Shown piece after piece: positions 32,380-63,750 of a DNA stretch of 64,000 nucleotides. This stretch comes from Plantactinospora soyae (GTDB lineage: Bacteria > Actinomycetota > Actinomycetes > Mycobacteriales > Micromonosporaceae), in NCBI RefSeq assembly GCF_014874095.1, contig NZ_JADBEB010000001.1, positions 6,076,001 through 6,140,000 on the forward strand. Direction: 5' to 3'. The translations under genes and the position numbers were made by a program. The notes below the pieces were generated by a model that had not been told where the DNA came from, made no database searches, and saw only the letters and a list, made by a program, of their open reading frames with translations. Within the stretch, counting starts at the first letter, position 1. Each line of letters starts with the position of its first letter.

Positions 32380-32781
32380 TCAGGCGTAGAAGGGGCTGTT
32401 CTGGTAACTCGCGAGCCGCCAGACGCCGCCGACGTCGGGCACCGCGATCCAAGAGGCCCGGATCTGCGCCTTCGGCGCGACCTTGTTCTCGCCGGCCTGC
32501 ATGACGCCACCGCTGGTGATCATGACGGCGAGCGAATCGCCGAAGAATTCCATCGACAGCGGCATGCCGGTGACCTGTGTGCCTCGGTACTGCTTGGTGA
32601 ACGCCTCCCTCATGAAGGCGACGATCTCGGCGCGGCCCTTGCAGAACACGCCGGGCAGGATCATCGAGCCGTTCTCGGTGAAGAGCTCACCGAATGCGTC
32701 GGCGTCGTTGGCCGCCCAGGACGAGACGAGCTTCGGGGCAAGCGAGGAGACGCCGATCGTGGCGGCAGTGGGGGCGGTCAT
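32380..32781 (-). CDS. SgcJ/EcaC-like NTF2-fold protein
   Basis: A 133-residue single-domain protein of the SnoaL/NTF2 fold. The pattern SSWAANDADAFGELFTENGS, GRAEIVAFMREAF and VWRLASYQNSPF matches the TIGR02246 (SgcJ/EcaC) group known from enediyne and other clusters. Such proteins have a small cone-shaped pocket and act as isomerases, cyclases or binding partners; a catalytic role for SgcJ has not been settled to my knowledge. The start has a GGAGGT site. It follows the acyl-CoA dehydrogenase-fold gene by 14 nt in the same operon. Confidence 0.75.
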   Translation of the reverse strand: MTAPTAATIGVSSLAPKLVSSWAANDADAFGELFTENGSMILPGVFCKGRAEIVAFMREAFTKQYRGTQVTGMPLSMEFFGDSLAVMITSGGVMQAGENKVAPKAQIRASWIAVPDVGGVWRLASYQNSPFYA

Positions 32782-32795
32782 GGCGATTACCTCCG

Positions 32796-33980
32796 TCAGA
32801 AGTACATCGTGTTGGGGTGGAGCCCGCAGAGGACCCGGCCGTACAGCTCCGCGTTGGTGTCGGGATGCATGAGCGCGTGCTGGTTGATGGCGCTGATGTC
32901 GCGGGTGATGCGCCCGATCGGCACGTGCGTGTAGATCGACGAACCGCCGCTGGCGTTGCCGAGGAGGTCACCGACCTGCTTGGCCAGGCGCACGACGGCG
33001 CCCATCTCGGCACGTGCGCGAACACGGGTCTCCATCTTCCATTCTTCGCCGCTCGCGGCGGTGGTGTCCACGAGCTCGGCGAGGGTGCAGGCGTGGAACT
33101 CGGCCTCCTCGACGAACATGGCGGCGTCAGCCACCTGCAGGTGCGTAAGCGGGGCGTCCGCCTGGCTCTCATAGCCGGTGTAGGTGATCTTGCGGCCGCC
33201 GAGGCGGCTCAGGAAGGTGCTGAGCGCGGCGCGCGCGAGGCCCAGCGTGGCGCCCACCGACGACGCCGACGCCACGGGCAGCAGCGGCGCGTTGTAGATG
33301 GCCGACGCCGCGTTGACCTGCGACGAGCAGGGACCCTCCAGCACGGCGGGTAGCGGGAGTACCCGCTCGGCCGGGATGAACAGGTCCTGCGCCACGGTGG
33401 TGACGCTGCCGGAGCCACGAAGGCCCGCCGTGTGCCAGTCGTCGACGATCTTCAGTTGAGTCATCGGCACCATCGCGATGACGGGCATCGGCGGAGCGTC
33501 GGGGCTGACGAGGATCGCGATGATCTCCTGCCAGTGTGCGTGGTGGGCGCCGCTTATGAAGCTCCACTTGCCGTTGACGACGATGCCGCCGTCGACCGGC
33601 GCGGCCATGCCGCCCGGGCTCAGCGTGCCGCAGATGCGCACGTTCGGTGTGGAGAAGATCTCGTCCTGCGCGGCCTCGGGGAACTGTGCGGCCATCCACG
33701 TGGGGATGGTGTAGACCGAGGAGATCCACGCGGTGGACCCGTCGGCCGTAGCGATCTCGGCGGCGACGTCGACGAGTGTGCGGGTGGAGGCTTCGTAGCC
33801 GCCGTATCGTTTCGGGATGCGCAGCTTGAACACGCCCGCATCGGTGAGCGCCTCGATCGACTCGTCGTGGACGCGACGATTCTCGTCCGCCCACTCGGCA
33901 TTTTTGGCCAGTGCCGGCAGGATGTCGCGTACTCGGTCGATGACCAGTTCGCGTGCCGGCTTCTCGGTTGATGGCACCAT
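32796..33980 (-). CDS. acyl-CoA dehydrogenase-fold flavin monooxygenase
   Basis: A 394-residue protein of the acyl-CoA dehydrogenase superfamily with a type-2 C-terminal domain, like HsaA or HpaB-class group D monooxygenases. Seen: N-terminal helices (RIPKRYGGYEASTRTLVDVA), a beta domain with GKWSFISGAHHAHW, and a C-terminal helix with GDLLGNASGGSSIYTH. This class uses reduced flavin from a separate reductase to hydroxylate phenols or oxidise amines. A GGAG site precedes the ATG. The operon order is P450, this enzyme, then the NTF2 protein. The substrate is unknown; an aryl-PCP or late intermediate is likely. Confidence 0.75.
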   Translation of the reverse strand: MVPSTEKPARELVIDRVRDILPALAKNAEWADENRRVHDESIEALTDAGVFKLRIPKRYGGYEASTRTLVDVAAEIATADGSTAWISSVYTIPTWMAAQFPEAAQDEIFSTPNVRICGTLSPGGMAAPVDGGIVVNGKWSFISGAHHAHWQEIIAILVSPDAPPMPVIAMVPMTQLKIVDDWHTAGLRGSGSVTTVAQDLFIPAERVLPLPAVLEGPCSSQVNAASAIYNAPLLPVASASSVGATLGLARAALSTFLSRLGGRKITYTGYESQADAPLTHLQVADAAMFVEEAEFHACTLAELVDTTAASGEEWKMETRVRARAEMGAVVRLAKQVGDLLGNASGGSSIYTHVPIGRITRDISAINQHALMHPDTNAELYGRVLCGLHPNTMYF

Positions 33981-34190
33981 TTACTCCTAAGGCGAATGGC
34001 AATGCCGGCTTTTCGGCGGATCTCAATGGTGTCATAAGGAGAGCCTGCCGTGGTCTTCTCGATTGCGCGGAATAATCGGGTGCGGGGCCGTGCCGCCCGT
34101 ACGCGATGCAGAACGAGTGAAGCCGCCGGCGGGCGGCCACGGCGCCCCGTCAGGGTCCCGCCCGCCCGGTGACCTTTTCCGAATATGCAC

Positions 34191-35977: not shown

Positions 35978-37435
35978 ATGGTGCGAACCAAGCAGCGGCT
36001 CGGCCTGCGTGCGGTGGGTGTCTACGGGCTTCTGGTCGTCCTGCCGGTGCTGATCAGCGTCGTTCTGCTTACCCGCGAGGGCGGCGCAGGGGGCGGGGCG
36101 ACGAAGGCGGCCGCAGCCGGGCATCCCCTTGCGCAGCTGCTGCTGGCCATCGCGGTCGTCATCGCCGCGTGCCGGCTGGCGGGCTGGCTGATGCGGCGGA
36201 TCGGCCAGCCCGCGGTGGTCGGCGAGATCATCGCGGGCGTCGTGCTCGGCCCGTCGCTGCTCGGAGCGGTCTGGCCGGCGGGCGCCGCGGCGCTGCTGCC
36301 GGACGCGATCCTGCCGCAGCTCAACGTTCTCGCCCAGGTGGGCGTCGTCCTGTTCGTCTTCCTGACCGGGCTCGAGCTGAACACCCGGCTGATCCGCGGC
36401 CGGGGGCACCTGGCCGTAGTGGTCAGCCACGTCAGCATCGCGGTGCCCTTCGTGCTCGGCGTGCTGCTCGCCATCGTCGCGTACGCCAAGTTCGCGCCCG
36501 AGGGAGTCGGGCCACTGGCCTTCGCGCTGTTCATCGGGGTGTCGATGAGCATCACGGCGCTGCCGGTGCTCGCCCGGATCCTCAAGGACACCGGGATGTT
36601 CCACAGCCGGGTCGGTGTCGTCGTGCTGACCTGCGCGGTGATCGACGACGTGACCGCGTGGTCGCTGCTGGCGCTGGTGGTGGCGGTCGTCACGGCGTCG
36701 TCTCTCGTCGGCGTGCTCCTGACGCTCGGGTCGGCGGTGGCCTTCGCCGCCCTGCTGCTCTATGCGATCCGCCCACTGATGACCTTGTACTTCGCCAGGA
36801 CCCCCGACCCGACGTTGCGCCGCCTCGCTCCGCTGGCGCTCGTCGGGGTGCTGCTGTGCGCCATGGCCACCGAGTGGATCGGCGTGCACGCGATGTTCGG
36901 TGCCTTCATGTTCGGCCTGGTCTTCCCGCGCGGCAACGTGGTCGAGAGGTGGCTGCACCAGAACGCCAGTGGCCTCACCACCGTACTGATGCTGCCCCTG
37001 TTCTTCGCCTACAGCGGCCTCCGGACGAACCTCACGCTGCTCGCCGACGCGTCGCAGTGGCTGTGGTGTGCGGTGATCCTCGTGGTGGCAGTCGTCGGCA
37101 AGCTGGTCAGCGCTGCGGTCGCTGCCCGCAGCGTCGGCGAGAGCCTCCCCCGGGCGCTGCAGATCGGCGTACTGATGAATTGCCGGGGCCTCACGGAGCT
37201 GATCGTGCTGAACGTGGGTCTCGATCTCGGGGTGCTGTCGCCGACCATATTCACCATGCTGGTGCTCATGGCCCTGATCTCCACGGCCATGACCGCACCC
37301 CTCGCGGTCGTCCTCGACAAGCGCGCAAGCCGGCACAAGGCTGCGCTCGCGTCCGTGCAGCAGCAGCCCGCGGTGGCCATGTCCCGGGCCACGCCTGCCG
37401 GTGCAGAGGAGCACGACGCGGTGACTGACCGCTGA
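35978..37435 (+). CDS. cation/proton antiporter, CPA2 (KefB-like)
   Basis: A 485-residue membrane protein with about 12-13 hydrophobic helices and CPA2 features: VVGEIIAGVVLGPSLLG in an early helix, VLFVFLTGLELNTRLI, a VIDDVTAW motif with paired acids that bind the ion, and a MNCRGLTELIV helix. It lacks a C-terminal TrkA-N domain. A GGAG-type site precedes the ATG. Such antiporters are common beside actinomycete clusters and may serve self-resistance or pH homeostasis; the ion is not predictable from sequence. Confidence 0.85.
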   Translation: MVRTKQRLGLRAVGVYGLLVVLPVLISVVLLTREGGAGGGATKAAAAGHPLAQLLLAIAVVIAACRLAGWLMRRIGQPAVVGEIIAGVVLGPSLLGAVWPAGAAALLPDAILPQLNVLAQVGVVLFVFLTGLELNTRLIRGRGHLAVVVSHVSIAVPFVLGVLLAIVAYAKFAPEGVGPLAFALFIGVSMSITALPVLARILKDTGMFHSRVGVVVLTCAVIDDVTAWSLLALVVAVVTASSLVGVLLTLGSAVAFAALLLYAIRPLMTLYFARTPDPTLRRLAPLALVGVLLCAMATEWIGVHAMFGAFMFGLVFPRGNVVERWLHQNASGLTTVLMLPLFFAYSGLRTNLTLLADASQWLWCAVILVVAVVGKLVSAAVAARSVGESLPRALQIGVLMNCRGLTELIVLNVGLDLGVLSPTIFTMLVLMALISTAMTAPLAVVLDKRASRHKAALASVQQQPAVAMSRATPAGAEEHDAVTDR

Positions 37436-37978: not shown

Positions 37979-39022
37979 ATGTCGCCAACGCGAGCATCTG
38001 AAGACATGACCATCGACCATGTCGAGTTCTACGTCGAGTCCATCGAGAACAACATCGAGTGGCTTGTGAACGGTTACGGCTGCTCGGTCCGCTCGACGTC
38101 CGCGGCCGGGCCGGGCGATGTCCGGTCGGTCGTGGTCGGCCAGGGTGACATCGATCTGGTGCTGACCGAGCCGGTCGAGCCCGACCACCCGGTCGCCGCG
38201 TACGTCAGGCGACACGGCGACGGGATCGCCAACATCGGCCTGCGGGTGCCGGATGCGGCCGAGGCGTTCGCATGGGCGGTTCGCCGTGGCGCCCGCCCCG
38301 TCGCACCGCCGCTCGAGCGGAACGGCGTGGTGACCGCGTCGATCATCGGATTCGGCGACGTCGCGCACACGTTCGTCCAACGTCCGGCCGGCTCGGTCCC
38401 GTTCGACGAGCCCGTTCACGCGGGCACCGGGTTGCTGAAGGTGGACCATTTCGCGGTGGTCGTGGAGCCGGGCCAGATCGACGACACCGTCGAGTTCTAC
38501 CGGCAGGTGCTCGACTTCGAGCTCACGCTGGCCGAACGGATCGCGACCGGAGACCAAGCCATGTTCATCAAGGTCGTGCAGAGCCGTTCGAGGGCGGTCA
38601 CTCTGACCCTGATCGAGTCGGACGCCTCGACGGAGCCGAGCCACGTCGACGCGTTCCTGAAGGACCACGGCGGGGCGGGCGTGCAACACATGGCCCTGTC
38701 CTGCGCGGACATCCGCTCATCGGTGCGGCAGATCATGGACAACGGCATCGAGTTGCTGTCCTCCCCGGACGCCTACTACGCGCTGCTGGCCGAGCGGATG
38801 CAGCCCGCCCGGCACAGCGTCGCATCGCTTCGCGAGCTGAACATCCTGTTCGATGAGGATCACGACGGGCAGCTGTACCAGATCTTCGCGAAGTCGGTGC
38901 ACCCGAGGAACACGATCTTCCTAGAGCTCATCGAACGGGCGGGCGCCACCACCTTCGGCAGCTCGAACATCAAGTCGTTGTACGAAGCGGTCGAAGGCCA
39001 GCGCTACCGGGACACCAACTGA
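37979..39022 (+). CDS. hmaS: 4-hydroxymandelate synthase / HPPD-family dioxygenase
   Basis: A 347-residue two-domain vicinal oxygen chelate dioxygenase. The iron ligands are seen as VDHFAVVV (His), VQHMAL (His) and FLELIER (Glu). HmaS and HPPD share the substrate 4-hydroxyphenylpyruvate. HmaS hydroxylates the benzylic carbon to give 4-hydroxymandelate, while HPPD makes homogentisate. The N-terminal domain (VLTEPVEPDHPVAAYVRRHG) and the HpgT gene in the same cluster favour HmaS. The start at 37979 has a GGAGG site; ATG 38006 is an alternative. It is the first of a plus-strand run: dioxygenase, halogenase, A-PCP, MbtH, DUF2855. Confidence 0.8.
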   Translation: MSPTRASEDMTIDHVEFYVESIENNIEWLVNGYGCSVRSTSAAGPGDVRSVVVGQGDIDLVLTEPVEPDHPVAAYVRRHGDGIANIGLRVPDAAEAFAWAVRRGARPVAPPLERNGVVTASIIGFGDVAHTFVQRPAGSVPFDEPVHAGTGLLKVDHFAVVVEPGQIDDTVEFYRQVLDFELTLAERIATGDQAMFIKVVQSRSRAVTLTLIESDASTEPSHVDAFLKDHGGAGVQHMALSCADIRSSVRQIMDNGIELLSSPDAYYALLAERMQPARHSVASLRELNILFDEDHDGQLYQIFAKSVHPRNTIFLELIERAGATTFGSSNIKSLYEAVEGQRYRDTN

Positions 39023-39056
39023 GCAGCGTAGTGAGCTGACGGGAGGAATCACGAGG

Positions 39057-40331
39057 ATGCTCCACAACCAAGACTTCGACGTCGTCGTCATCGGCGGCGG
39101 CCCCGGTGGTTCGGCCACCGCCGGTCTGCTGGCTCAGCAGGGCCACAATGTGCTCGTGCTGGAAAAGGAGAAGTTCCCTCGCTATCACATCGGGGAGTCG
39201 CTCATCACCGGGTCGATGCCCACGATCGAGGCACTCGGCCTGCGCGACAGGCTCGACAAGATGGGCTATGTCCGCAAGTACGGCGGCACCCTGATGTGGG
39301 GGCGCAACCAAGGCGCGTGGGACTTCCGGTTCACCGAGGCCTCAGAGTACGAGTACACGTTCCAGGTCCGCCGGGCCGACTTCGACTCGGTGCTCATGGC
39401 GCGGGCGCGTGAGCTCGGCGCGCTGGTCATCGAGGAGGCCGCCGTCCAGGACGTGCTCTTCGAGGGTGAGCGTGCCGTCGGCGTGCGGTTCCAGCGCAAG
39501 GGTGACGCCGAGGTGACGACCGTCAACTCGAAGCTGGTCGTCGACGCCTCGGGCCAGCAGCACCTGCTCGCGCGCAAGCTCGACCTGATCGAATACCACC
39601 AGGACCTGCGCAACATCGCGGTCTGGGCCTATTTCCAGAACTGCAACCGGTACAGCGGCACGCGCTGGGGCGACACGCTCACCGAGAACCGCCCGAAGGG
39701 CTGGTTCTGGTTCATCCCGCTCTCGGACTCGACGGTGAGCATCGGGTACGTCACGCCCATCGACGAGTACAAGAAGACCGGCCGGTCGCTGGAGGAACTG
39801 CACGCTAGCGAGCTGGCCGCGGCGGACGAGATCACCTCGCTGGTCGGACCCGCCACCCGGGTCAGTGGGTATCGCACGATCAAGGACTGGTCCTACACCT
39901 GCAAGAAGTTCTACGGCCCGGGCTGGGCGCTGGTCGGCGACGCCGCGGCGTTCATCGACCCGCTGCTCTCCACCGGCGTCGGCCTGACCCTGCGCGGCGC
40001 CCTCGGCCTGTCCGAGACCGCTCATCTCGCGCTGAGTGACCCGGACCAGGAGGTGGCGCTCTACGAGCGCTACGAGACCAACTACCGTGAGTTCCTCGGC
40101 TCGCTGCTGGAGTTCATCCGGTTCTTCTACGACCGCACCAAGTCCAAGGAGGACTACTGGGATGCGGCGCAGCAGGCCATCGACTTGCGGCGCTTGCGGC
40201 CGCGCAAGATCGACTTTGCTCGGATGCTGTCCGGGGTGTCCGGCATGCGCGACATCTTCGACGGGCCACTTGCACTCAAGGCGTTCAGGGACAGCGATAC
40301 ACAGGATCTGCTCGACACTCGCGCGGGCTAG
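39057..40331 (+). CDS. FAD-dependent halogenase acting on a carrier-bound aryl group
   Basis: A 424-residue flavin halogenase. Seen: the GGGPGGS FAD-binding motif near residue 13, the halogenase signature WFWFIP (WxWxIP) near residue 217, and GDAAAFIDPLLSTGV in the second FAD motif. Its length and C-terminal region resemble the SgcC3/PltA/CndH type, which halogenates substrates held on a peptidyl carrier protein. It uses reduced flavin, oxygen and chloride or bromide to form hypohalous acid near a conserved Lys. It lies 34 nt after hmaS and directly before the A-PCP gene, so the aryl-S-PCP is the expected substrate. Confidence 0.9.
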   Translation: MLHNQDFDVVVIGGGPGGSATAGLLAQQGHNVLVLEKEKFPRYHIGESLITGSMPTIEALGLRDRLDKMGYVRKYGGTLMWGRNQGAWDFRFTEASEYEYTFQVRRADFDSVLMARARELGALVIEEAAVQDVLFEGERAVGVRFQRKGDAEVTTVNSKLVVDASGQQHLLARKLDLIEYHQDLRNIAVWAYFQNCNRYSGTRWGDTLTENRPKGWFWFIPLSDSTVSIGYVTPIDEYKKTGRSLEELHASELAAADEITSLVGPATRVSGYRTIKDWSYTCKKFYGPGWALVGDAAAFIDPLLSTGVGLTLRGALGLSETAHLALSDPDQEVALYERYETNYREFLGSLLEFIRFFYDRTKSKEDYWDAAQQAIDLRRLRPRKIDFARMLSGVSGMRDIFDGPLALKAFRDSDTQDLLDTRAG

Positions 40332-40348: not shown

Positions 40349-42106
40349 ATGGAATCATTCGTCATCTCCGAGCGGTTCGCCGAGCAGGTCGCGCGCACGC
40401 CGGAGGAGGTCGCGGTGACCGCAGGCGCGGTCGGCCTGACCTACCAGGAGCTGGACGCGCGGGCCAACCAGCTCGCGCACCGGCTCATCGGGCTCGGTGT
40501 CCGTCAGGACGACCGGGTGGCGGTACTGCTCGAGCGGTCGATCGACCTGGTGGTGGCGATCCTCGCGACCGTCAAGGCGGGCGGCGTCTACGTCCCGGTG
40601 CACGACGACTACCCGGCCGACCGCCGGCAGTGGGTCGTGGACCACGCCGAGGTCACGGTGCTCCTCGCCGACACGGCCAAGCTCGCGGGCGGTCTGCCGA
40701 CCGGTGTGCCCGTCGTGGTCGTCGACGACGACCCGGCCACCGCCGAGCAGCCCGTCACCGATCCGGCTGTGCCGATCCACCCCGACCAGCTGGCGTACGT
40801 GATCCACACGTCCGGCTCCACCGGGCACCCCAAGGGTGTCGCGGTGACCCAGCGGGACGTCGTACGGCTGATCTTCAACACCGAGTGGACGGTGGCGCGG
40901 CACGCGCGGGTGCTGATGGTGGCGCCGTACGCGTTCAACGTGTCCACCTACGAGATCTGGATGCCGCTGCTCCACGGCGGCCGGCTCGTCGTCGCGCCGC
41001 CGGGGTACCTCGGAGCCGGCGCGCTGCGCGACCTGATCCGGAGCGAGGGGATCACCGGAATCCACCTGACAGCGGGGCTGTTCCGGGTGCTCGCGGAGGA
41101 GTCGCCGGAGACGTTCACTGGTTTGTCCGAGATTCTCACCGGCGGGGACGTGATCGCCCCCAACGCGGTGCGCAGGGTGCTCGACGCTTGTCCGGACATC
41201 GTGGTCCGGGCGATGTACGGCGTCACGGAGTGTTCCCTGTTCTCCGCGCACAACCCGCTGACCGCCTCCTTCGTGCCCGGCATGCTGGTGCCGATCGGGA
41301 ACGCGTTCGACGACGCGACCATCCACATCCTCGACGACCGGCTCACCGCCGTCCCGAACGGGATCGAAGGGGAGATCTACATCGCCGGCCGGGGTGTGTC
41401 TCGTGGCTACCTCGGCCGTCCGGACCTGACCGCGGAGGTGTTCGTCGCGGACCCGTTCGGTGCGCCGGGTACTCGCATGTACCGCACCGGTGATCTGGCT
41501 CGTCGCAACGACGACGGCCTGATCGAGTTGGTCGGCCGGGCGAGCAGCCAGGTGAAGATCCTCGGCTTCCGGGTCGAGCTGGCCGAGGTGGAGGCCGCGA
41601 TGGCTTCCTTCCCCGGGCTCGCACAGGTCGTCGTCGTGGTGCGCGAGCTCGAGTCGGGGGAGAAACGGTTGGTCGGCTACGTCGTGCCGGAGTCGGGCGA
41701 CGTCGATCTGGGGGCGCTACGCGCGCACGTCCGGGAATCGCTGCCGGACTACATGATCCCAGCGGCGTTCGTCCAGCTGGCCTCCCTCCCGCTGACCGCG
41801 AACGGGAAGCTGGACCGCAAGGCGATGCCGGAGCCCGACTTCGAGGCCGCGGCGGCTTACCGGGCGCCGGAGACGCCGCTGCAGGAGTCGCTGTGCGCGA
41901 TCTTCGCGTCGGTACTCGCGGTGCCCACGGTCGGTATCGACGACAGCTTCTTCGACCTCGGTGGTCAGTCGCTGGAGGCGATGCGGCTGCTCAGCCGGAT
42001 CCGGGCCGAGATCGGTCCCGATCTGCTGATCAACGTGCTTTTTGACATCCCGACCGTGGCCGGGTTGGCCAACCATATCGACGACGTCGCGACCGCGGCG
42101 GCCTGA
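40349..42106 (+). CDS. stand-alone NRPS adenylation-PCP didomain
   Basis: A 585-residue A-PCP protein. A3 is TSGSTGHPKG (about 154-163), A5 YGVTE, A7 YRTGDLA, and A10 NGKLD with the catalytic Lys near 488. The PCP site is LGGQSL with the phosphopantetheine Ser at 541. By eye alignment to PheA the specificity residues read N-V-Y-H-L-G-M-L-F-K. H, L, G, L and K agree with the Hpg code DIFHLGLLCK, but position 235, normally the Asp that holds the alpha-amino group, is Asn. The substrate is therefore a 4-hydroxyphenyl C2 acid, either Hpg or, more likely on this residue, 4-hydroxymandelate or 4-hydroxybenzoylformate. MbtH follows at once. Confidence 0.9.
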   Translation: MESFVISERFAEQVARTPEEVAVTAGAVGLTYQELDARANQLAHRLIGLGVRQDDRVAVLLERSIDLVVAILATVKAGGVYVPVHDDYPADRRQWVVDHAEVTVLLADTAKLAGGLPTGVPVVVVDDDPATAEQPVTDPAVPIHPDQLAYVIHTSGSTGHPKGVAVTQRDVVRLIFNTEWTVARHARVLMVAPYAFNVSTYEIWMPLLHGGRLVVAPPGYLGAGALRDLIRSEGITGIHLTAGLFRVLAEESPETFTGLSEILTGGDVIAPNAVRRVLDACPDIVVRAMYGVTECSLFSAHNPLTASFVPGMLVPIGNAFDDATIHILDDRLTAVPNGIEGEIYIAGRGVSRGYLGRPDLTAEVFVADPFGAPGTRMYRTGDLARRNDDGLIELVGRASSQVKILGFRVELAEVEAAMASFPGLAQVVVVVRELESGEKRLVGYVVPESGDVDLGALRAHVRESLPDYMIPAAFVQLASLPLTANGKLDRKAMPEPDFEAAAAYRAPETPLQESLCAIFASVLAVPTVGIDDSFFDLGGQSLEAMRLLSRIRAEIGPDLLINVLFDIPTVAGLANHIDDVATAAA

Positions 42107-42123: not shown

Positions 42124-42345
42124 ATGGCAAATCCGTTCGAAGAGCCGGACGCCCAGTATACCGTCCTGCGCAACGAGGAGAACCAGCACTCGCTGTGGCC
42201 GGCGTTCGCGCCGGCGCCCGACGGTTGGACCGTCGTGCACGGGCCGGGCCACCGCGAGGAGTGCATGACCTACATCCGGGAGAACTGGGTGGAACTGCGC
42301 CCGCGTTCGGTGACCGAGTTCGTCACGGCCCAGGCCGGGACATGA
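42124..42345 (+). CDS. MbtH-like protein
   Basis: A 73-residue MbtH protein with the family signature NEENQHSLWP, then WTVVHGPGHREEC and YIRENW containing the conserved tryptophans. MbtH proteins bind NRPS adenylation domains and are often needed for their solubility and activity. It lies 17 nt after the A-PCP gene with a GGAGG site, so that protein is its natural partner. Confidence 0.95.
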   Translation: MANPFEEPDAQYTVLRNEENQHSLWPAFAPAPDGWTVVHGPGHREECMTYIRENWVELRPRSVTEFVTAQAGT

Positions 42346-50469: not shown

Positions 50470-50569
50470 CACGGCACCCTCCTCACCAGGCACAACGCCC
50501 GGTAGGTCAGGCCGGAAACACCGTTAGATCCACAGACCCGGATCGTCCGCCGGTTCGGGACTGTCGACA

Positions 50570-54348: not shown

Positions 54349-55927
54349 CGACGACCTCGGCCCGATCCGGTTCTCCGATGCGGTCTTCGACGCCGCCGTG
54401 CGCGTTCTTCGCGTGCCGGAACGCCGTCAGGACCAGCACGCAGAGGCCGGCACACAGGACGGCGCAGATGACGCCCACCACGTGCAGCCCGGATGTGAAC
54501 GCCTCGCGGGACGCGCTCAGCAGGTCGTCGCGCTGCTGGGCGGGAAGCTGGGTGGCCGCGTCGACCGCTCGGTCGATGCTCTCAGCGGCGGCGTTCGCGG
54601 CGGCGGGCGGCAGCCCGCCCAGCGCGCCCTCCACGGTGTACCGGTACACCGCGGTCCCGATCGTAGCGATCGTGGCGATGCCGAGCCCGATGGCGAACTC
54701 GGTGGCTGTCTGCACGATCGACGCCCCCGAACCCGCCTTGTCCGGCGGCACGGCTCCCATGGCGAGGTGGTTGGCCAGCGCGGCCAGTGGCGCGGTACCG
54801 AGCATGACGACACACATCGCGATGAAGATCGTCGTGGCACCGGACGTCGCGTCGGTGAGCGTGAACGTCAGGTAGCCGAGGCTGGCGACGACCATGCCGC
54901 CCGCGATCAGGTAGGCCGGACGGATGCGGTCGGCCACCCGCGGGGCGGTCAGGCTGGCAATGATCATCAGTGTTTGCGGCACCAGCAGGAGCAGGCCGGC
55001 CGCCAACGGGGTGCGGCCAATGACGTTCTGCAGGTACAAGGTGACGATCAGAAGGCTGCCCGCGCCCACGAGTGCGGAGATGAAGAACATGATCACCGTG
55101 GAGCGGAAGATCCGGTTGCCGAACAGGCGCAGGTCCAGCAGCGGGTGCTCAAGGCGACGCTGCCGCTGGACGAACGCCATCCCGATCGCGACGCCGAACA
55201 TCAGCGACACCGCGGGGAACCACGTCCAGCCGTCGCGGGCCAACGACTTGATCCCGTAGGCGAACGGCAAGATCGCCGCGAGGGACAGCACGACGCTGAG
55301 CGGGTCGAGCTTGCCCGCCTGCGGCGACCTCTGTTCGGAAAGCAGCGCGGGACCGAATACCAACAGCAGCACGATTCCCGGTACGGACACCAGGAGCACC
55401 GAACCCCACCAGAAGAACTCGAGCAGCACACCGCCGACCAGCGGGCCCAGCGTCGATCCGGTCATGAAGCAGGCCGTCCAGATTGCGAGAGCGCGGCCAC
55501 GGTCCTTCAGCCGGGTGAACATCCCCATGATCAGTGCCATCACCGACGGCAGCACCGCGGCGCCGGCCACGCCGAGCAGCGCACGGCTGGTGATGAGCAT
55601 CTCCGGGCTGACGGAGAATGCCGCCACCACCGAGGCCACCCCGAACACCGCCGCCCCGGCCAGCAGTAGCCTCTTCCTGCCGATCCTGTCACCGAGAGTC
55701 CCCATGGTGACCAGGAAGCCCGCGATCACGAAACCGTAGATGTCCACGATCCACAGCTGCTGGATCCCGCTCGGTGCGAGGTCGGCAGTCAGCCGTGGAA
55801 CGGCCAAGTACAGCACGGAGAAGTCCATCGAGACGAGAAACGTGGGCAGGCAGAGCAGAGCCAGGCCGGCCCATTCCCGCCGCCCCGGTGCGGGCTTCGT
55901 GTCTGTACTCATGTCGGCGGTGGTCAC
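54338..55927 (-). CDS. MFS drug exporter, DHA2 (14-TM) family
   Basis: A 529-residue transporter with 14 predicted helices. Motif A-like GDRIGRKRLLLAG follows helix 2, and GSTLGPLVGGVLLEFFWW is the helix-5 antiporter motif. It ends with an extracytoplasmic loop and a last helix near residue 500. DHA2 proteins export drugs or natural products by proton antiport, so self-resistance or product export is likely. The GTG start at 55927 is 3 nt from the preceding stop; ATG 55912 is an alternative. It lies inside the seven-gene operon. Confidence 0.9.
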   Translation of the reverse strand: MTTADMSTDTKPAPGRREWAGLALLCLPTFLVSMDFSVLYLAVPRLTADLAPSGIQQLWIVDIYGFVIAGFLVTMGTLGDRIGRKRLLLAGAAVFGVASVVAAFSVSPEMLITSRALLGVAGAAVLPSVMALIMGMFTRLKDRGRALAIWTACFMTGSTLGPLVGGVLLEFFWWGSVLLVSVPGIVLLLVFGPALLSEQRSPQAGKLDPLSVVLSLAAILPFAYGIKSLARDGWTWFPAVSLMFGVAIGMAFVQRQRRLEHPLLDLRLFGNRIFRSTVIMFFISALVGAGSLLIVTLYLQNVIGRTPLAAGLLLLVPQTLMIIASLTAPRVADRIRPAYLIAGGMVVASLGYLTFTLTDATSGATTIFIAMCVVMLGTAPLAALANHLAMGAVPPDKAGSGASIVQTATEFAIGLGIATIATIGTAVYRYTVEGALGGLPPAAANAAAESIDRAVDAATQLPAQQRDDLLSASREAFTSGLHVVGVICAVLCAGLCVLVLTAFRHAKNAHGGVEDRIGEPDRAEVVGGR

Positions 55928-55930
55928 GGA

Positions 55931-56447: not shown

Positions 56448-57260
56448 CTACTGCTTCCGGGCGCACAGGATCAGGTAGGTCACGTCCTCCGGGCCCAGAT
56501 GAAATGCTTCCCGCATCCCGTGGCGGATGCCCTCGGTCATCTCTGCACCGAACTCCTCGGTGATCTGATCCCTGACCGACTCGAAGTGCATGAGGTGGCG
56601 CTTGCCGGTGTTGACGTACACGCGTCGGCTCTGGATCCGCTCCTCGACCACGAAACCCACGGACTCGAACGCCTTGGTCCAACTCTCCGCGGTCATGGGT
56701 TCACGGGCCAGCGGGAAGGGCCTCTTCAGCGGCGAGGCGTCGGTGGTCTTCGAGATCTCGGACATGGCGACCCGACCGCCGGGACGTAGGACCCGGTGGA
56801 ACTCCCTCAGCGCATGTTCCAGGTCGTAGGCGTTGAACAGCGACTCGAACGCGACGACGGCGTCGAACTCGGCGTCCGCGAAGGGCAACGAGTGGTAGTC
56901 GGCGACCTCGAACTGGGTCTGCTCGGCCGCTCCGCTCTGCTGCGCGCGAGCCCGGCTCCTCGCGGCCTCGACAGGGCTGATCGTGATGCCGGTGACCCGG
57001 ACGCCGTACGCCCCGGCGATGTCGATCGACGCGGTGCCGGTGCCGCAGCCCGCCTCGAGCAGGCGCTCACCGCGATGCAGGCCGAGGGTGTCCACGACCT
57101 TGCGGGTGAGGCGCCCGGCGCCTTCCTCCAGCGTGGCGTCGTCGCTGTCGTCGTACCAGTAGCCCTGGCGTTGATAGCCACCGAAGTACTTGTCGGCCAG
57201 TGCGCTGGCACCGTCGTAGAACTTAGCGATGTCGGCCGGATTCGCATTCAGTTCGCTCAC
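56448..57260 (-). CDS. class I SAM-dependent methyltransferase
   Basis: A 270-residue methyltransferase. Motif I is LLEAGCGTGTASIDIA (about residue 68), motif II VVAFESLFNAY, motif III LRPGGRVAMSE. The order and the long C-terminal lobe resemble UbiE- and sterol-type C/O/N-methyltransferases. The target cannot be set from sequence; aryl C-, phenol O- or amine N-methylation are all possible. It is second in the minus-strand operon after the condensation enzyme gene. Confidence 0.85.
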   Translation of the reverse strand: MSELNANPADIAKFYDGASALADKYFGGYQRQGYWYDDSDDATLEEGAGRLTRKVVDTLGLHRGERLLEAGCGTGTASIDIAGAYGVRVTGITISPVEAARSRARAQQSGAAEQTQFEVADYHSLPFADAEFDAVVAFESLFNAYDLEHALREFHRVLRPGGRVAMSEISKTTDASPLKRPFPLAREPMTAESWTKAFESVGFVVEERIQSRRVYVNTGKRHLMHFESVRDQITEEFGAEMTEGIRHGMREAFHLGPEDVTYLILCARKQ

Positions 57261-57365: not shown

Positions 57366-58784
57366 TCACGTAGCGGGCGAGACCGCACCGGTTCCTGAAC
57401 CAAACAATTCCGAATCCGGCGACGCAAGGCCGGCGCGCAGCAGGTCTCGGTATTCGGCGAGCATCGAGAGGATGCTCGACTCGTCGAACTCGAGACTGTT
57501 GAACTTCACCACGCCCAGCATCTCGCCGGCCGGGTCCAGGTCGAAGTCCCACAGACTGCCGCTCGGAATCTCGGAGGTGTCGGTGTCCGAGATCAGCCGC
57601 CGGCGTAGGCCGGAGTAGCGGAGGTCACCGACAAGCTCCTCGTCCAGCGTCTGCGGGTAGTGGTTGACCTCGAACGTTATGACGACGCCGTGCGGATCCC
57701 CGTACGGGCTCATCAGATCGGGTGCGGCTTGGGCCAGTACCTCACGGAACGGCAGTTCGTAGGACATGGCCTCGAACAACGTGGCACGGGTCTTGCTAAC
57801 CAGGTCGCGGAAGGTCACGCAGCCGGACACGTCGACCCGGATCGGAACGAGGTTGAAGAACAGCCCGACGGTCTCGTGGAACTCCGGCGCCGCACGGCCG
57901 GACATGAACGTCGTGGCCAGGATGTCGCGCACACCCGTCCGCCGGTGCAGGAACAGCAGGTAGCACGCGTAAAGGACCATGAACGACGAGCAGCGCATCG
58001 ATTTCGCCAGCGCGTTCGTGGCGGTGAAGAGCTCCTTGTCGAACGCGAACCGATGCACCGCGTAGCTCGGTCGGGTGTCCGGCCGCCGGACCCGATCGGT
58101 GGGGACGGTGACGAACTTAGCGCCGTCGAGCTTGGCCTTCCAGTACTCGCGGGCGGCGACCGCGGACTTGTCGCCCAGCGCCCGCTGCTCCCAGCTCGCG
58201 TGCTCGCCGTACTGGCGCATCGCCGGCAGGGTAGGCTCGGCGAAGCCCCGGCGATTCGCGTAGCAGATAGCGATGTCGCGGAGCACCACGTGAATGGACC
58301 AGGCGTCGCTGACCGTGTGGTGGGTGACGAGCACGAGCACGGCGTCATCGGCACCGAATCGCCCCAGCGAGGCGCGCAGCAACGGCATGCGCGTGATGTC
58401 GCACCTGCTGTCGCCCTCGACCTCGTTGAGGAACTCGTGCGCGCGACGCTCCCGGTCCGCCGCGTCCCCCGCCGGGGTGAGCTCGCTGACCGTGAGGTCC
58501 ACGGGGCTCGGCGGGTGGACCCGGCCGTAGGGCTCGCCCTCGTCCCGGACGATGAGGGTGCGCAGACCCTCGTGCCGCGCTGCGACGTCGTCCAACGCCG
58601 CCTGCAGCGTCGTCAGGTCGAGCTCACCGCGCAGCCGCCAGCCCGCGGTGACGATGTTCCGCGGGCCGAATGCGCCGAAGGTGTCATCGCCCTGGTCGAA
58701 GGCGCACATGAACGCCTGGCTGGCCGAGAGGTCTCGCCGGCCGGTCGCGGCACCGGTACGCGGGCGTTCTGTCTCGATGGTCAT
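57366..58784 (-). CDS. free-standing condensation enzyme (SgcC5-like)
   Basis: A 472-residue single condensation domain with no A or PCP domain. The catalytic HHxxxDxxS reads HHTVSDAWS near residue 153. Later segments are TFMSGRAAPEFHETVGLFFN and LVPIRVDVSG, as in LCL and SgcC5-type domains. SgcC5 joins a PCP-bound aryl amino acid to an alcohol of the enediyne core as an ester; related enzymes make amides. Here it would couple the aryl group loaded by the A-PCP protein to a scaffold made outside the window. It is the first gene of the seven-gene operon. Confidence 0.85.
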   Translation of the reverse strand: MTIETERPRTGAATGRRDLSASQAFMCAFDQGDDTFGAFGPRNIVTAGWRLRGELDLTTLQAALDDVAARHEGLRTLIVRDEGEPYGRVHPPSPVDLTVSELTPAGDAADRERRAHEFLNEVEGDSRCDITRMPLLRASLGRFGADDAVLVLVTHHTVSDAWSIHVVLRDIAICYANRRGFAEPTLPAMRQYGEHASWEQRALGDKSAVAAREYWKAKLDGAKFVTVPTDRVRRPDTRPSYAVHRFAFDKELFTATNALAKSMRCSSFMVLYACYLLFLHRRTGVRDILATTFMSGRAAPEFHETVGLFFNLVPIRVDVSGCVTFRDLVSKTRATLFEAMSYELPFREVLAQAAPDLMSPYGDPHGVVITFEVNHYPQTLDEELVGDLRYSGLRRRLISDTDTSEIPSGSLWDFDLDPAGEMLGVVKFNSLEFDESSILSMLAEYRDLLRAGLASPDSELFGSGTGAVSPAT

Positions 58785-59094
58785 CGGGCTGCGGTTCCTC
58801 TCGTCGGCCGGCGGCACCGTCGCTCTGGCGGGTCTGCCGGGCAGTCGGGTTGCCGATCCACTGTGCCTGCCGCTGCGCCGCGGGCTTCTCGATTGGTGCG
58901 CCGCCGACCCGACCCCTCGCGTCCGACCGTATGCTGCCGAGAGATACGGGCTTCTCCATTCGAGCGCTGTTTCGTTGAACCCGTGTGCCCGAGCCGTCAG
59001 AAGCTAGAGTGACGGTCGATAGGCGGACCAGGAAAGCATCCACAAGCTGGGGCCCGGACCGTCCACAAGCTGGGAGAAAGGAACACGGGAGAAC
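58785..59094. promoter_or_regulatory. divergent promoter region with 13-bp direct repeat
   Basis: Between the condensation enzyme operon (minus) and the RibD-like gene (plus). TCCACAAGCTGGG occurs at 59039-59051 and again at 59062-59074, a 23-bp period (about two helical turns), ending 20 nt before the GTG start. It looks like a pair of operator half-sites. No protein-coding frame with family motifs is present. Confidence 0.4.
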
Positions 59095-59709: not shown

Positions 59710-59874
59710 TCCGGCGTACCCGGACGCTCCGCCACCTGTGAGACGCGGTGACCGGGAATCTCCGGCATCGTGAACAGGAGACGCCCGGTCCTCGGCCGCG
59801 CCGAACCGGCTACGCGCCTCGATGCCTACCGGCTCCTGGCGGCGTGACCCCACCCGACCAAGGAGATGCGGCAG

Positions 59875-61437
59875 ATGGCCGAACTGCCCGAGGCGATCGA
59901 ATCCACTCGCCCGCTGACCGGCGAGGAGTACCTCGAAACCGTGCGCGACGACCGGGAGATCTACATCTACGGCGAGCGGGTCAAGGACGTCACCGAGCAC
60001 CCCGCGTTCCGCAACCCGGCCCGGATGACCGCACGCCTCTACGACGCACTGCACGACCCCGAGCACCACGACGTCCTCACCACCGCCACCGACCACGACG
60101 GCCCCCGGGGCTACACCCACCGCTTCTACACGACACCGCACACCGTCGACGACCTCGTCGCCGACCAGAAAGCCATCGCCACCTGGGCCCGGCTCAGCTA
60201 CGGCTGGATGGGCCGCAGCCCCGACTACAAGGGAGCGTTCTTCGGCACGCTCGGCGTCAACGCCGACTTCTACAACCCCTTCGCCGACAACGCCCGCCGC
60301 TGGTATCGAGAGGCCCAGGAAAAGGTCCTCTACTGGAACCACGCCTTCGTCCACCCACCCGTGGACCGCGACAAACCAGCACACGAGGTCGCCGACGTGT
60401 TCATCCACGTCGAACGCGAGACCGACAGCGGGGTGATCGTGTCCGGGGCGAAGGTGGTGGCCACCGGATCGGCACTGACCCACCACAACTTCATCGCCCA
60501 CGACCGGTTGCCGGTCAAGGACCGCAAGTTCAACATCGTAGCCACCGTGCCGATGAACGCACCCGGCCTCAAACTGATCTGCCGGCAGTCCTACGCGGCG
60601 GCGTCGACGCTCACCGGCAGTCCGTTCGACTACCCCCTGTCCTCCCGGATGGACGAGAACGACGCCATCCTCATCCTGGACAAGGTGCTCATCCCCTGGG
60701 AGAACGTCTTCATCTACGGCGACGCGATGAAGGTCGGCATGTTCACCGGACAGTCGGGTTTCAACGAGCGCGCCCAGCTCCACGGAGCCACCCGGCTGGC
60801 GGTGAAATTCGAGTTCCTCGCCGGCCTGCTCGCCAAGGCCTTCGAGATCACCGGCGTCAACAACTTCCGCGGCGTGCAGACCCGCCTCGGTGAGGTACTC
60901 GCGTGGCGCAACCTCTTCTGGGGACTCTCCGACGCCGCCGCCCGCAACCCCGTACCCTGGCGCAACGGATCAGTGCTACCCAACCCGGACTACGGGTCGG
61001 CGTTCCGCTGGTTCTCCCAGCTCGGCTACGCACGCCTACGAGAGATCGTGCTACAGGACGTGGCCAGCGGGCTGATCTACCTCAACTCCAGCGCACAGGA
61101 CTTCGGCAACGACAACGTCCGGCCGTACCTGGACAAATACCTCCGCGGCTCACACGGCATCGACTCCGTCGAACGCGTCAAAGTCATGAAACTGCTCTGG
61201 GACGCCGTCGGCTCCGAATTCGGTGGCCGCCACGAACTCTACGAACGCAACTACACCGGCAACCACGAGAACACCCGGATCGGGATTCTGATGGGGCAGA
61301 TGGCCGACGGGCAGCTGGACGGCTACAAAAGCTTCGTCGACCAATGCCTCGCCGAATACGACCTCGACGGCTGGACCGTCCCCGACCTCTCCTCCTTCGA
61401 GAACATCGGCCGACAGGCCCGCAACCTCCTCTCCTGA
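59875..61437 (+). CDS. 4-hydroxyphenylacetate 3-monooxygenase (HpaB/SgcC-type) oxygenase
   Basis: A 520-residue flavin-dependent monooxygenase of the HpaB family, with the acyl-CoA dehydrogenase fold. Seen: [19 protein letters not shown] at the N-terminus, [35 protein letters not shown] and [15 protein letters not shown]. These enzymes hydroxylate a phenol ortho to the OH using FADH2 from a partner reductase; SgcC does this on a PCP-tethered chloro-beta-tyrosine. A catechol product fits the O-methyltransferase gene next door. The ATG 59875 has AAGGAG at the right distance; the ATG at 59866 directly abuts it and is unlikely. Confidence 0.9.
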
Positions 61438-61455
61438 GCGGTTGTCGAAGGCCGT

Positions 61456-61475
61456 CGCCCGGTTCTCACCGGGCG
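61456..61475. terminator. hairpin between convergent genes
   Basis: A CGCCCGG stem with CCGGGCG and a 6-nt loop (TTCTCA), between the stops of the HpaB-like gene (+) and the O-methyltransferase gene (-). Short but perfect; a probable shared terminator. Confidence 0.5.
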
Positions 61476-61488
61476 CGGTGCGCGAAGG

Positions 61489-62166
61489 TCAGGGCACGCG
61501 GGGTTCACCGCCGGCCCGCTTGTACGCCAGGGTCACGCCATCGAAGACGGGGAGCATGCTCAGCTCGACCCGCTCGTCGTCGCGCAGCGCGAGGTTCAGC
61601 GCGCGCAACGCGTCCGTGTCCGAGTCGCTGACGTCGCTGCGCGCCACCCGGCCCGACCAGAGGGTGTTGTCCAGCACCACCAGTCCGCCGGGGCGGAGCA
61701 GTTCGAGGCAGCGCTCGTAGTAGTCGGCGTAGTTGTTCTTGTTGGCGTCGATGAAGGCGAGGTCGAAGGTGCCCGCCGCACCGCCGGCCAGCAGCGCGTC
61801 CAAGGTCTCGAGTGCGGGCCGCAGCTCGAGCCGGATACGATCGGTGACACCTGCCCGGTCCCAGTACGGGCGACCGATCTCAGCCCATTCGGAGCTGACG
61901 TCGCACGTGACGATCCGCCCGTCCGCCGGAAGCGCGCGGGCCATCAGGAGCGTGCTGTACCCGGTGAACGTCCCAATCTCGACGATGTTCTTCGCGGAGA
62001 TCAGCCCGACCAGGAAGCCGAGCAGCTGCCCCTCCGCGGGTGGGGCGCACATGCCGTGCGCGAGCAGCTCCATGGTGGCCATCCGCAGCCCGTGCGCGAT
62101 GTCGTCCTCGCGAAGCGACACGTCCACCACGTACTGCTCGATCACTCCGAGTTCCCCGGTCGCCAT
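61489..62166 (-). CDS. catechol-type O-methyltransferase (CCoAOMT family)
   Basis: A 225-residue class I O-methyltransferase of the caffeoyl-CoA/catechol type. Seen: IVEIGTFTGYSTLLMARAL (SAM motif), TFDLAFIDANKNNYADYYE with the metal-binding Asp, and GGLVVLDNTLW. Family members need a divalent metal and methylate one OH of a catechol. It lies convergent to the HpaB-like hydroxylase gene that would make the catechol. Start: the ATG 62166 has GGAGG 7 nt upstream; the ATG at 62172 is too close to it. Confidence 0.9.
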   Translation of the reverse strand: MATGELGVIEQYVVDVSLREDDIAHGLRMATMELLAHGMCAPPAEGQLLGFLVGLISAKNIVEIGTFTGYSTLLMARALPADGRIVTCDVSSEWAEIGRPYWDRAGVTDRIRLELRPALETLDALLAGGAAGTFDLAFIDANKNNYADYYERCLELLRPGGLVVLDNTLWSGRVARSDVSDSDTDALRALNLALRDDERVELSMLPVFDGVTLAYKRAGGEPRVP

Positions 62167-62376
62167 CAGCATTCCTCCCAGTCGTGATCAACACAGATTC
62201 CGCCCGACGAGGATCAACTCGGCGTGCGTGAACAGATAGTCGCACCTGGGGTCGGCGCGGCCTTCTCGAAAGGTGCGCAGAATCGCAGACTTGGAGACGT
62301 CCACACGCCGGACGACCGATACTCTCAGCGCCAGAAAATATGTGGGGAAATGATCATCCGAACGTCGGAGGACGCG

Positions 62377-63750
62377 ATGCCGGATTCGATTCAAGCCGGT
62401 CTGCCGATCATCATCGAGGCATGGCTCGGAGACAGCGCAAAGATCGAGGGCACCGACGAGGACATGCTTCCGGGGACCGGAAACCCGATCGTCGACGCGG
62501 CGCATTCGTTCAACGTGGCTCATCCGGAGTACGAGGTACGTATCCGCAAGATCGACTATCGGGAGCTGCCAAAGGCGGTCGCCGAGGCGGTCGCGCAGGG
62601 CAATCCACCCGCGCTGGCGGAGTACGTGTACACGGCGACCCAGGTCGCGCTCGACACACGCGCCCGCGCGGGCGGTCCGCTGTTCGTGCCGGTGGAGCGG
62701 GCGGTCAGGGATCGCACCGAGATCCTCGGCGAGCCCGTGATCCTCGACGACATCGTGGCCTCCGCGCGCGAGTACTGGAGCCGCGGGGGCGAGCTGGTCT
62801 CGGTGCCGACGACCGTGACGTGCAACGTCCTGTTCGCCAACAGGGCCATTCTCGAGCGCGCCGGAATCGACCGGATGCCGGCGACGTGGCAGGACCTGGA
62901 GGCCGCGTGCGCCGCGGTCGCCGCGCTGCCCGACGGACCGGCGCACGGCGTGACCTGGCCCAACTACGGCTGGCTGTTCCACCGGGAGGTCGTCGGGCAG
63001 GGCGGGCTGTTCTGCAACGGCGACAACGGCCGCGCCGGCCGGGCCACCCGGGTCTTCCTGGACTCCCCCGAGATGCTCGCCTACGTCCAGTGGTGGAAGC
63101 ACATGCACGACCGCGCCTACTACCACTACACCGGCGAGGTGAACGACTACTTCGGCGCCATGGTCGCGTTCGGCCGGCAGGACGTCGCCTTCGCGGTCAC
63201 CTCGTCGGCGGTCGGCCAGGAGATGCTGGACATAGCCACCGCCGCGGGCTTCGAACTACTCGCGGGTCACCTGCCGCGGTCCGGCGCCGAGCCCTACTCC
63301 AGCGGGCCCCTCGGCGGCCAGTCGTTCTTCCTGACCGCCGGCCTGCCTACGGCGGTCGAGGACGGCGCGCTCGCCTTCCTCCAGCACCAGCTCAACCCGC
63401 AGCACGCGATCGCCCGCATGCACAGCCGTTCACTCCCGTTGACCCAGCCCGCCCACGAGCAGGCCACCGCGGAGCAGTGGACCGAGCCGTTTCCCGGCTA
63501 CCTCGTGGCGACCGAGCAGCTCGCCTCACCGAACCGGACTCCGGCAGCAGCCGGGCCGCTGCTCGGCAACCTCAACGGCATCAACGGCATCATGATCGCG
63601 GCGATGGATGACGTGCTCAAGCGGGGGGCGGAGCCGGCCGCCCGGTTCCGCGAGGCGAGCAGGGCGGCCCAGGCGCTGCTCGACCGTTACAACGCGTCAG
63701 CGCTCGCCTACCCGCCCGTGACCCCCGAAGCATTGACCGTCACGGCCTGA
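62377..63750 (+). CDS. ABC-type solute-binding-protein-fold protein without signal peptide
   Basis: A 457-residue protein with the family 1 (sugar/extracellular) binding-protein fold: IIIEAWLGDSAKIEG, VTCNVLFANRAILERAGID, PATWQDLEAACAAVAALPDG and AFAVTSSAVGQEM. The start at ATG 62377 has GGAGG at 6 nt spacing. Neither this start nor the upstream sequence encodes a signal peptide or a lipobox cysteine, so the protein looks cytoplasmic. No ABC permease gene is nearby. It may bind a cluster intermediate or sequester the product; an upstream start with an unrecognised signal is the alternative. Confidence 0.75.
   Translation: MPDSIQAGLPIIIEAWLGDSAKIEGTDEDMLPGTGNPIVDAAHSFNVAHPEYEVRIRKIDYRELPKAVAEAVAQGNPPALAEYVYTATQVALDTRARAGGPLFVPVERAVRDRTEILGEPVILDDIVASAREYWSRGGELVSVPTTVTCNVLFANRAILERAGIDRMPATWQDLEAACAAVAALPDGPAHGVTWPNYGWLFHREVVGQGGLFCNGDNGRAGRATRVFLDSPEMLAYVQWWKHMHDRAYYHYTGEVNDYFGAMVAFGRQDVAFAVTSSAVGQEMLDIATAAGFELLAGHLPRSGAEPYSSGPLGGQSFFLTAGLPTAVEDGALAFLQHQLNPQHAIARMHSRSLPLTQPAHEQATAEQWTEPFPGYLVATEQLASPNRTPAAAGPLLGNLNGINGIMIAAMDDVLKRGAEPAARFREASRAAQALLDRYNASALAYPPVTPEALTVTA

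Follow-up and report, generated by a model that had tools for sequence, protein, structure and literature searches.

The cassettes behind the aryl arms of C-1027, kedarcidin and maduropeptin (the sgcC-C5 and mdpC series) combine an SgcC-like hydroxylase, carrier-bound acyl logic, an SgcC5-like enzyme and SgcJ, and for maduropeptin a beta-tyrosine cassette route is outlined in one report (PMC10951976). The sporolide (spo) genes are described, in another, as a polyketide synthase (PKS) core part and a 45-kb nonribosomal peptide synthetase (NRPS) part that serves the cyclohexenone epoxide subunit and is missing in three S. pacifica strains, and in this sense separable PKS and NRPS parts are already described for Salinispora (PMC8609351). 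The spo condensation domain SpoT10 is related to SgcC5, according to a third source (PMC11446937). In this study we analysed a 64-kb stretch of Plantactinospora soyae DNA (the window; contig NZ_JADBEB010000001.1, positions 6,076,001 to 6,140,000), in which a sequence-only reading had seen a comparable aryl cassette, wired to 4-hydroxymandelate synthase (HmaS) and hydroxyphenylglycine (Hpg) genes instead of an aminomutase. The results suggested that the locus at about 32-74 kb is quite probably the side-arm half of a two-locus gene cluster for a nine-membered-type enediyne.

Coordinates are those of the window unless given in Mb, which denotes genome numbering. The contig carrying the window is complete (9.716 Mb), genes were called by codon usage, and families were assigned by Pfam and NCBIfam profile searches together with searches of the PDB structure database. 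The named cassette genes span 32.4-62.2 kb, and gene calling and family searches showed that the locus continues to about 74 kb, past the window end.

The family and PDB searches bore out the HpaB hydroxylase, free condensation enzyme, A-PCP didomain, carrier-protein-type halogenase, catechol O-methyltransferase and SgcJ-like protein that had been named from the sequence. The condensation protein (57366..58817, minus strand) matched 4znm best, at 360 bits against 134 for the next entry. We take 4znm to be SgcC5 (its database title is C-domain type II peptide synthetase); the HHxxxDA active-site variant is common to both, and by homology and motif the protein is predicted to be a free-standing enzyme of SgcC5 type. 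The first of three HpaB copies (59866..61437, plus) scored 869 bits with 4oo2, presumably SgcC (database title Chlorophenol-4-monooxygenase), and 606 bits with the next entry, which places it nearer to SgcC than to the 4-hydroxyphenylacetate hydroxylases and predicts an SgcC-type carrier-bound hydroxylase. The SgcJ-like protein (32380..32781, minus; TIGR02246) matched SgcJ itself (4i4k, 126 bits). The equation of these genes with the whole SgcC, C1, C2, C3 and C5 set went too far, as it held for the SgcC- and SgcC5-like enzymes but not for the A-PCP (40349..42106, plus; PF00501, PF13193, PF00550) and the FAD halogenase (39057..40331, plus; 8zop 478 bits, CndH-like 3e1t 261 bits). A domains of aminomutase-type clusters were only 25-37% identical to that of the window and their full-length halogenase matches 33-38%, against 48-87% for the A-PCP and 61-90% (four clusters) for the halogenase in clusters of the window's own type. 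Judged by these identities, the two proteins are a different pair, not of the SgcC1/SgcC3 kind. A literature search gave no name for the 8zop protein.

The window locus further differs from C-1027, kedarcidin and maduropeptin in having HmaS and no aminomutase. The HmaS protein (38006..39022, plus; 64-75% identical in Amycolatopsis-type clusters) scored 306 bits with 2r5v and 185 bits with 1t47, which we take to be a vancomycin-type HmaS and a Streptomyces 4-hydroxyphenylpyruvate dioxygenase (HPPD), respectively. By these scores it is closer to HmaS than to HPPD, and it also scores above the NCBIfam cutoff for 4HPPD, where it is filed.

The closest known system is probably sporolide. In G224, which we take to be the sporolide producer Salinispora tropica CNB-440, a PksE cassette carries HmaS, an A-PCP of code NVYHLGMLFK, MbtH, an SgcC5-like condensation enzyme, HpaB and SgcJ within about 45 kb, and the window has the same set. 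The spo genes are contiguous, whereas the window cassette lies far from the PksE of the genome; in the G224 cluster examined there was no HpgT and no halogenase like that of the window, and the window A-PCP was 59% identical to the G224 protein, compared with 87% to Amycolatopsis. Sporolide presumably uses hydroxymandelate. The open-licence literature searched, which leaves most subscription papers outside, described no enediyne cassette fed by hydroxymandelate or Hpg.

Complementary gene content of two loci

Ketoacyl-synthase matches across the genome pointed to an enediyne PKS (PksE) at 3.54 Mb. Its locus (3.53-3.57 Mb) encodes a 1918-aa KS-AT-KR-DH protein, a DUF1702 protein (E3), a UnbV/ASPIC protein (E4) and a 341-aa protein in the E5 position, with the labels E3, E4, E5, E10 and E6 assigned by analogy. 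A thioesterase, a flavin reductase, a P450 and a more distal epoxide hydrolase are also found there, and the epoxide hydrolase, SgcJ and E6-like genes suggest a nine-membered core. The PksE locus shares a contig with the condensation gene, at a distance of 2.588 Mb. An enediyne scaffold, as the sequence-only reading had guessed, was supported, but not its expected place beyond 64 kb. Gene calling in the 98 kb right of the window gave no PKS or NRPS gene, with all PF00109 and PF00668 matches of the genome listed; only additional HpaB and monooxygenase genes, an ABC transporter and ordinary-looking genes were seen there, and a scaffold on that side was rejected.

A search with the condensation protein across 397 genomes of the order gave a match at E 1e-80 in 35, all of which also had a PksE match. 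A PksE ketoacyl-synthase match occurs in 73 of the 397, which predicts only 6.4 for 35 genomes (P 4e-30, kinship not corrected). The condensation gene and PksE lie on one contig in 30 genomes, within 100 kb in 24 of these (at most 62 kb) and split by 0.8-6.4 Mb in the other six, which are the host genome (G000), G076, G069, G306, G386 and G347. That the cassette serves a non-enediyne scaffold, for example one of the NRPS products of the genome, is very improbable in our view. The genome does have large NRPS loci, one of them with HmaS and an FMN_dh-aminotransferase fusion, but that locus is itself equipped with HmaS, aminotransferase, MbtH and halogenase genes, and SgcC5-like genes were confined to the PksE-bearing genomes.

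To compare gene content, 24 families were taken, each occurring in five or more of nine contiguous clusters (G224, G180, G282, G295, G310, G342, G174, G200 and G393; 489 predicted genes), with presence scored at 38% identity and 60% query coverage. All 24 were found in the host genome, 13 at the PksE locus only, seven at the window locus only (condensation, HpaB, A-PCP, HmaS, second monooxygenase, exporter and solute-binding protein) and four at both (first monooxygenase, SgcJ, P450 and AraC). The core families were all at the PksE locus and the arm families all at the window locus, and six other regions of the genome, taken as controls (58-120 kb), held 0, 0, 1, 1, 1 and 2 of the 24. The two loci together hold the full gene set shared by the contiguous clusters. 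In G076, a second split genome, each of the two loci held 11 families and none was common to both, which makes 22 of the 24.

The cassette might instead be a decaying piece of a transferred Amycolatopsis-type cluster that has lost its PksE and makes no product, with an unrelated or arm-less enediyne as the product of the 3.54 Mb locus. Such a relic would fit the mobile elements at and within the window locus, among them two identical insertion sequence (IS) copies, the three HpaB copies, and the presence of the SgcJ, first monooxygenase, P450 and AraC families at both loci. On the other side, the cassette genes are predicted as uninterrupted reading frames, the core families all lie at the PksE locus and the arm families all at the window locus, the same division recurs without overlap in G076, and a fifth of the same-contig genomes (6/30) are split; we regard a relic as unlikely.

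Ancestry of the two loci

Within the 35 genomes, the host PksE reached 73% identity to its best relatives, which belong to its own family group (f1), and no more than 59% to group f15; by inference only, f1 corresponds to Micromonosporaceae and f15 to Pseudonocardiaceae. Identity was 57-58% to named Amycolatopsis and Saccharothrix strains and 68% to an Actinomadura. In a PksE tree built by a quick method from 31 of the 39 genomes of the condensation-enzyme (C5) tree, those whose PksE sequence was retrieved, the host PksE fell among 13 f1 rows with SH-aLRT 100. In the C5 tree (39 rows, of which G400 is an NRPS domain and no true C5), the host grouped with G398, G076 and G393 at 100/100. Among 26 window-locus genes with a homologue in the compared loci, 25 scored better to f15 and the Amycolatopsis and Saccharothrix loci, the exception being RibD, whereas seven of eight core genes of the PksE locus (E3, E4, E5, PksE, E10, E6, P450_e1 and a short-chain dehydrogenase/reductase) scored better in f1. 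GC content is 0.677 at the window locus and 0.703 at the PksE locus. Because PksE groups with its own family and the cassette with Amycolatopsis, the arm cassette was probably acquired separately from the PksE locus.

Closely related cassettes were found in Amycolatopsis vancoresmycina NRRL B-24208 (L140), Amycolatopsis sp. NBRC 101858 (L141) and Amycolatopsis sp. CA-128772 (L142), all with HmaS, HpgT, racemase, the GlcD-like enzyme and an A-PCP of identical code, at 81-87% identity. For L141 and L142, identity to the window was 87% and 81% in the A-PCP, 90% and 87% in the halogenase, and 85% and 88% in GlcD; the halogenase was 85-90% identical across G282, L141 and L142. Unlike in the host, the cassettes of L141 and L142 are on one contig with PksE, with 32-65 kb between A-PCP and PksE; in L140 cassette and PksE are on different contigs. 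In G282, the antiporter, HmaS, halogenase, A-PCP, MbtH and condensation genes are contiguous with PksE. The L141 enediyne cluster also has NRPS-like A and C domains between A-PCP and HmaS (L141:14000-20100), where the arm may be longer.

Several points speak against this interpretation of two joined halves with different origins. The halves are 2.59 Mb apart, and the four families found at both loci allow that there may have been two formerly separate clusters. E3 is marginally nearer to f15, several flanking genes of the PksE locus are neutral, and RibD favours f1, opposite to the rest of the window locus. The f15 comparison set includes four loci picked by A-PCP similarity, which biases it.

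Across the survey, arm type tracked the condensation-enzyme tree and not the PksE tree. With arms labelled by the presence of an MIO (4-methylideneimidazole-5-one) lyase, the label needed three changes on the C5 tree against a shuffled mean of 13.4 (0/500 shuffles as low), and 11 changes on the PksE tree against a mean of 10.3 (399/500 as low). PksE is almost identical among G069 and G306, of aminomutase type, and G076, of HmaS type, each of them a split genome. Their PksE loci (at 0.29 Mb in G076, 2.04 Mb in G069 and 6.44 Mb in G306) are likewise nearly identical and have no linkage to the arm loci, which belong to two different types; they provide a natural example of arm exchange.

Supply and loading of the aryl unit

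As had been read from the window, no MIO aminomutase was found, and this now extends to the genome, whose sole PF00221 protein (at 3461109, 611 bits) scores with the housekeeping class. A housekeeping-class copy was present in each of the 35 compared genomes at 595-627 bits, and 20 copies beside the condensation gene scored 536-572 bits. By its gene content the window locus thus appears to lack both marks of a C-1027-type beta-tyrosine cassette, the MIO tyrosine aminomutase and an A domain of the aminomutase clusters. Within 40 kb of the condensation gene, HmaS was found in eight of the 35 genomes, an MIO lyase in 20, neither in seven and both in none; the chance of zero overlap is 3e-4 if shared ancestry is ignored. 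This count used 24 HmaS matches, leaving out HPPD-like ones of at most 40% identity except in G393, and 44 PF00221 matches; by visual inspection, none of the omitted matches lies on the contig of the condensation gene at 40 kb or less from it. The proposal of an aryl cassette fed by HmaS in place of an aminomutase was supported by these data, which also showed that such wiring is not unique to the window; the eight genomes probably include the sporolide producer. G209 and G339 have an HpgT homologue (45%) at 10 and 36 kb, respectively, from their SgcC5-like gene and no HmaS nearby.

We next compared the substrate codes of the A domains, with positions mapped by motif to GrsA numbering. The window code NVYHLGMLFK is identical in G282, G224, G180, L140, L141 and L142, and further codes without Asp at position 235 are NVYHLGMVFK (G200), QVYHMGMLFK (G295), SVYHLGMLFK (G174), SMFHMGMLFK (G310) and AVYQSGTLFK (G367). 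Asp was found at this position in G076 (DIFHLGTVLK), G393 (DIFHLGSVLK), G389 (DVFHLGMLFK) and L143 (DVYHLGLVFK). Most aminomutase clusters had DPCQ(V/L/F)(M/I)(I/L/V/M)(I/V)AK, with DPCQ(V/L)M(L/I/V)IAK read in the majority, or DACQLAL(I/V)LK, with a few others. Asp235 holds the alpha-amino group of the substrate, and Asn in its place suggests that the window A domain would load an alpha-hydroxy acid, 4-hydroxymandelate.

The alternative is the same split cluster loading Hpg (L, or D after the racemase) for an aminoacyl ester or amide, a possibility that we put somewhat short of even. The HmaS, HpgT and GlcD-like genes named from the sequence were confirmed by the family and PDB searches, and a racemase was found in addition; HpgT, the GlcD-like dehydrogenase and the racemase are likewise present in L140, L142 and G398. 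The HpgT and racemase genes suggest Hpg, and the window code agrees with the Hpg code, which we take to be DIFHLGLLCK, at H278, L299, G301 and L330. Compared with the glycopeptide Hpg pathway (HmaS, the hydroxymandelate oxidase Hmo and HpgT), the locus has homologues of HmaS and HpgT, but a GlcD-like FAD enzyme stands in for the FMN-dependent Hmo, its oxidase role being a proposal, and there is a cofactor-independent racemase and no NRPS line. Against Hpg loading, residue 235 is Asn and not Asp, and HpgT accompanies Asp235 in all four readable clusters (in L143 with A-PCP and HpgT on different contigs) but only four of the 12 without it (the host, L140, L142 and G398). This association has a one-sided Fisher value of 0.04, kinship not corrected; G163 was left out of the count, as were G209 and G339, whose codes could not be read although HpgT lies near. 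At E 1e-70, a whole-genome search found no HpgT in G282, which shares the window code, or in G180, G200, G295, G174 and G310; in G224 and G367 HpgT is 0.28 and 0.52 Mb away. A strict rule that Asn235 means no HpgT is broken by the host, L140, L142 and G398, and a weak trend remains. As HpgT, the GlcD-like enzyme and the two-cysteine racemase are at the locus and have no role in a pure hydroxymandelate route, which counts against hydroxymandelate, it is only moderately ahead of Hpg as the loaded unit. A chimera, in which an HmaS-halogenase-A-PCP block was swapped into a G076-type Hpg cluster, was also considered and is weakened by the same combination in L140 and L142.

The cassette locus and the proposed pathway

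In the proposed pathway, HmaS would convert 4-hydroxyphenylpyruvate to 4-hydroxymandelate, and the A-PCP with MbtH would load this acid, or Hpg made from it by GlcD and HpgT, onto the carrier domain. There the halogenase would chlorinate the unit, the SgcC-like HpaB would add a second ring hydroxyl and the O-methyltransferase would cap it, and the SgcC5-like enzyme would pass the acyl unit on to the enediyne core encoded by the PksE locus, which would also provide the flavin reductase and the epoxide hydrolase that the window locus is without. No PF01613 flavin reductase was found among the scanned predicted genes of the window locus, and one was found at the PksE locus. In C-1027, SgcE6 is thought to supply reduced FAD to the hydroxylase and the halogenase, according to a review (PMC6165268).

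The remaining genes were mapped as follows. An HsaA-type flavin monooxygenase (32796..33980, minus; PF08028; NF045629 at 250 bits, under its cutoff), of a family present in 9/9 contiguous clusters, is followed by a cytochrome P450 (34191..35288, minus; PF00067; 72% identical in G076) and a Na+/H+ antiporter-like gene (35978..37435, plus; PF00999; 80% in the G282 cluster and 64-78% in G398 and G399). To the right of the A-PCP, which is 81-87% identical in the three Amycolatopsis strains, are MbtH (42124..42345, plus; PF03621), a DUF2855 gene (42386..43474, plus; PF11017; 77% in L141, 44% in G076), a second P450 (43552..44784, minus; PF00067; 92% in G076) and a zinc alcohol dehydrogenase (45855..46895, plus; PF08240; 87% in G076). 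Transposases separate the latter from the HpgT-like aminotransferase (50878..52167, minus; PF00155; 81-84% in L140 and L142), which is 54% identical to the aminotransferase half of the host's own FMN_dh-aminotransferase fusion. That fusion (797 aa) is encoded at 5.384-5.457 Mb, in an NRPS locus with proteins of 8512, 4527 and 4325 aa, HmaS, a halogenase and MbtH.

Next come the Asp/Glu-type racemase with both cysteine motifs, CNS and CTH (52160..52849, minus; PF01177), the GlcD-like FAD dehydrogenase, proposed as hydroxymandelate oxidase (52930..54303, minus; PF02913, PF01565; 88-90% in L140 and L142), and a major facilitator superfamily (MFS) exporter (54338..55927, minus; PF07690; family in 9/9 contiguous clusters). 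A DUF6069 gene lies between the exporter and a class I methyltransferase (56448..57260, minus; PF08241; 66% in G076), and a RibD_C gene between the condensation gene and the first HpaB. The catechol-type O-methyltransferase (61489..62172, minus; PF01596; 74% in G393) is followed by an extracellular solute-binding protein (62224..63750, plus; PF13416; family in 7/9 contiguous clusters), for which the coding score prefers a start at 62350. Right of 64 kb are, in order, a beta-propeller/phosphoesterase protein, DUF2306, the second HpaB, an IS, the third HpaB, a second HsaA-type monooxygenase and an HTH_67 protein. MbtH, the racemase, the two P450s and DUF2855 were absent from the sequence-only reading, as were, beyond the window, the two HpaB copies, the second monooxygenase and the HTH_67 protein.

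On the left, an AraC-type regulator (20535..21332, plus; PF12833; family in 7/9 contiguous clusters and also at the PksE locus) is probably an outlier of the locus. Adjoining it is the chorismate mutase (22123..22398, plus; PF01817; 91 aa), which had been placed within the cassette and is indeed present, but about 10 kb to its left; it has no homologue in the compared clusters, and its membership in the locus is uncertain.

The locus also carries signs of rearrangement. A Mutator-family IS (49183..50539, minus; PF00872) has an inverted, 100% identical copy of the same 1357 bp at 68774-70130, outside the window, and the pair brackets about 18 kb from HpgT to the second HpaB, a segment that it could invert. 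The HpaB copies (59866-61437, 67119-68675 and 70226-71788) share 94.2-98.5% DNA and 91-98% protein identity, against at most one copy in each of the nine contiguous clusters, where the family counts 8 genes in 8 genomes. A pair of group II intron-type elements with reverse transcriptase/maturase (25470-27879, minus, and 28518-30921, plus) are 77% identical and inverted to each other. The IS pair, the HpaB copies and the group II elements speak for recent rearrangement of the locus.

Three things are new here: a pair of loci whose ancestries disagree, the finding that HmaS and MIO lyase exclude each other, and the split at position 235. The cassette would have come by horizontal transfer from an Amycolatopsis-like donor, and the PksE locus from the host's own family. 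We see an even chance that the enediyne aryl arm is an exchangeable module, independent of the PKS, and that here an Amycolatopsis-type arm re-equips a resident PKS to give a two-locus hybrid, in which the arm would be a 4-hydroxymandelyl or hydroxyphenylglycyl ester bearing chlorine and a methoxy group. Much of the target binding and stability of the DNA-cleaving enediyne drugs depends on the arm. Genome mining judges a cluster by the neighbours of its PKS; if the split is real, unlinked arms are missed and their loci look orphan. Asp or Asn at position 235 of the A domain may serve as a readable predictor of an aminoacyl or a hydroxyacyl arm, and a natural two-locus hybrid would let the acceptance of foreign cores by SgcC5-type enzymes be tested.

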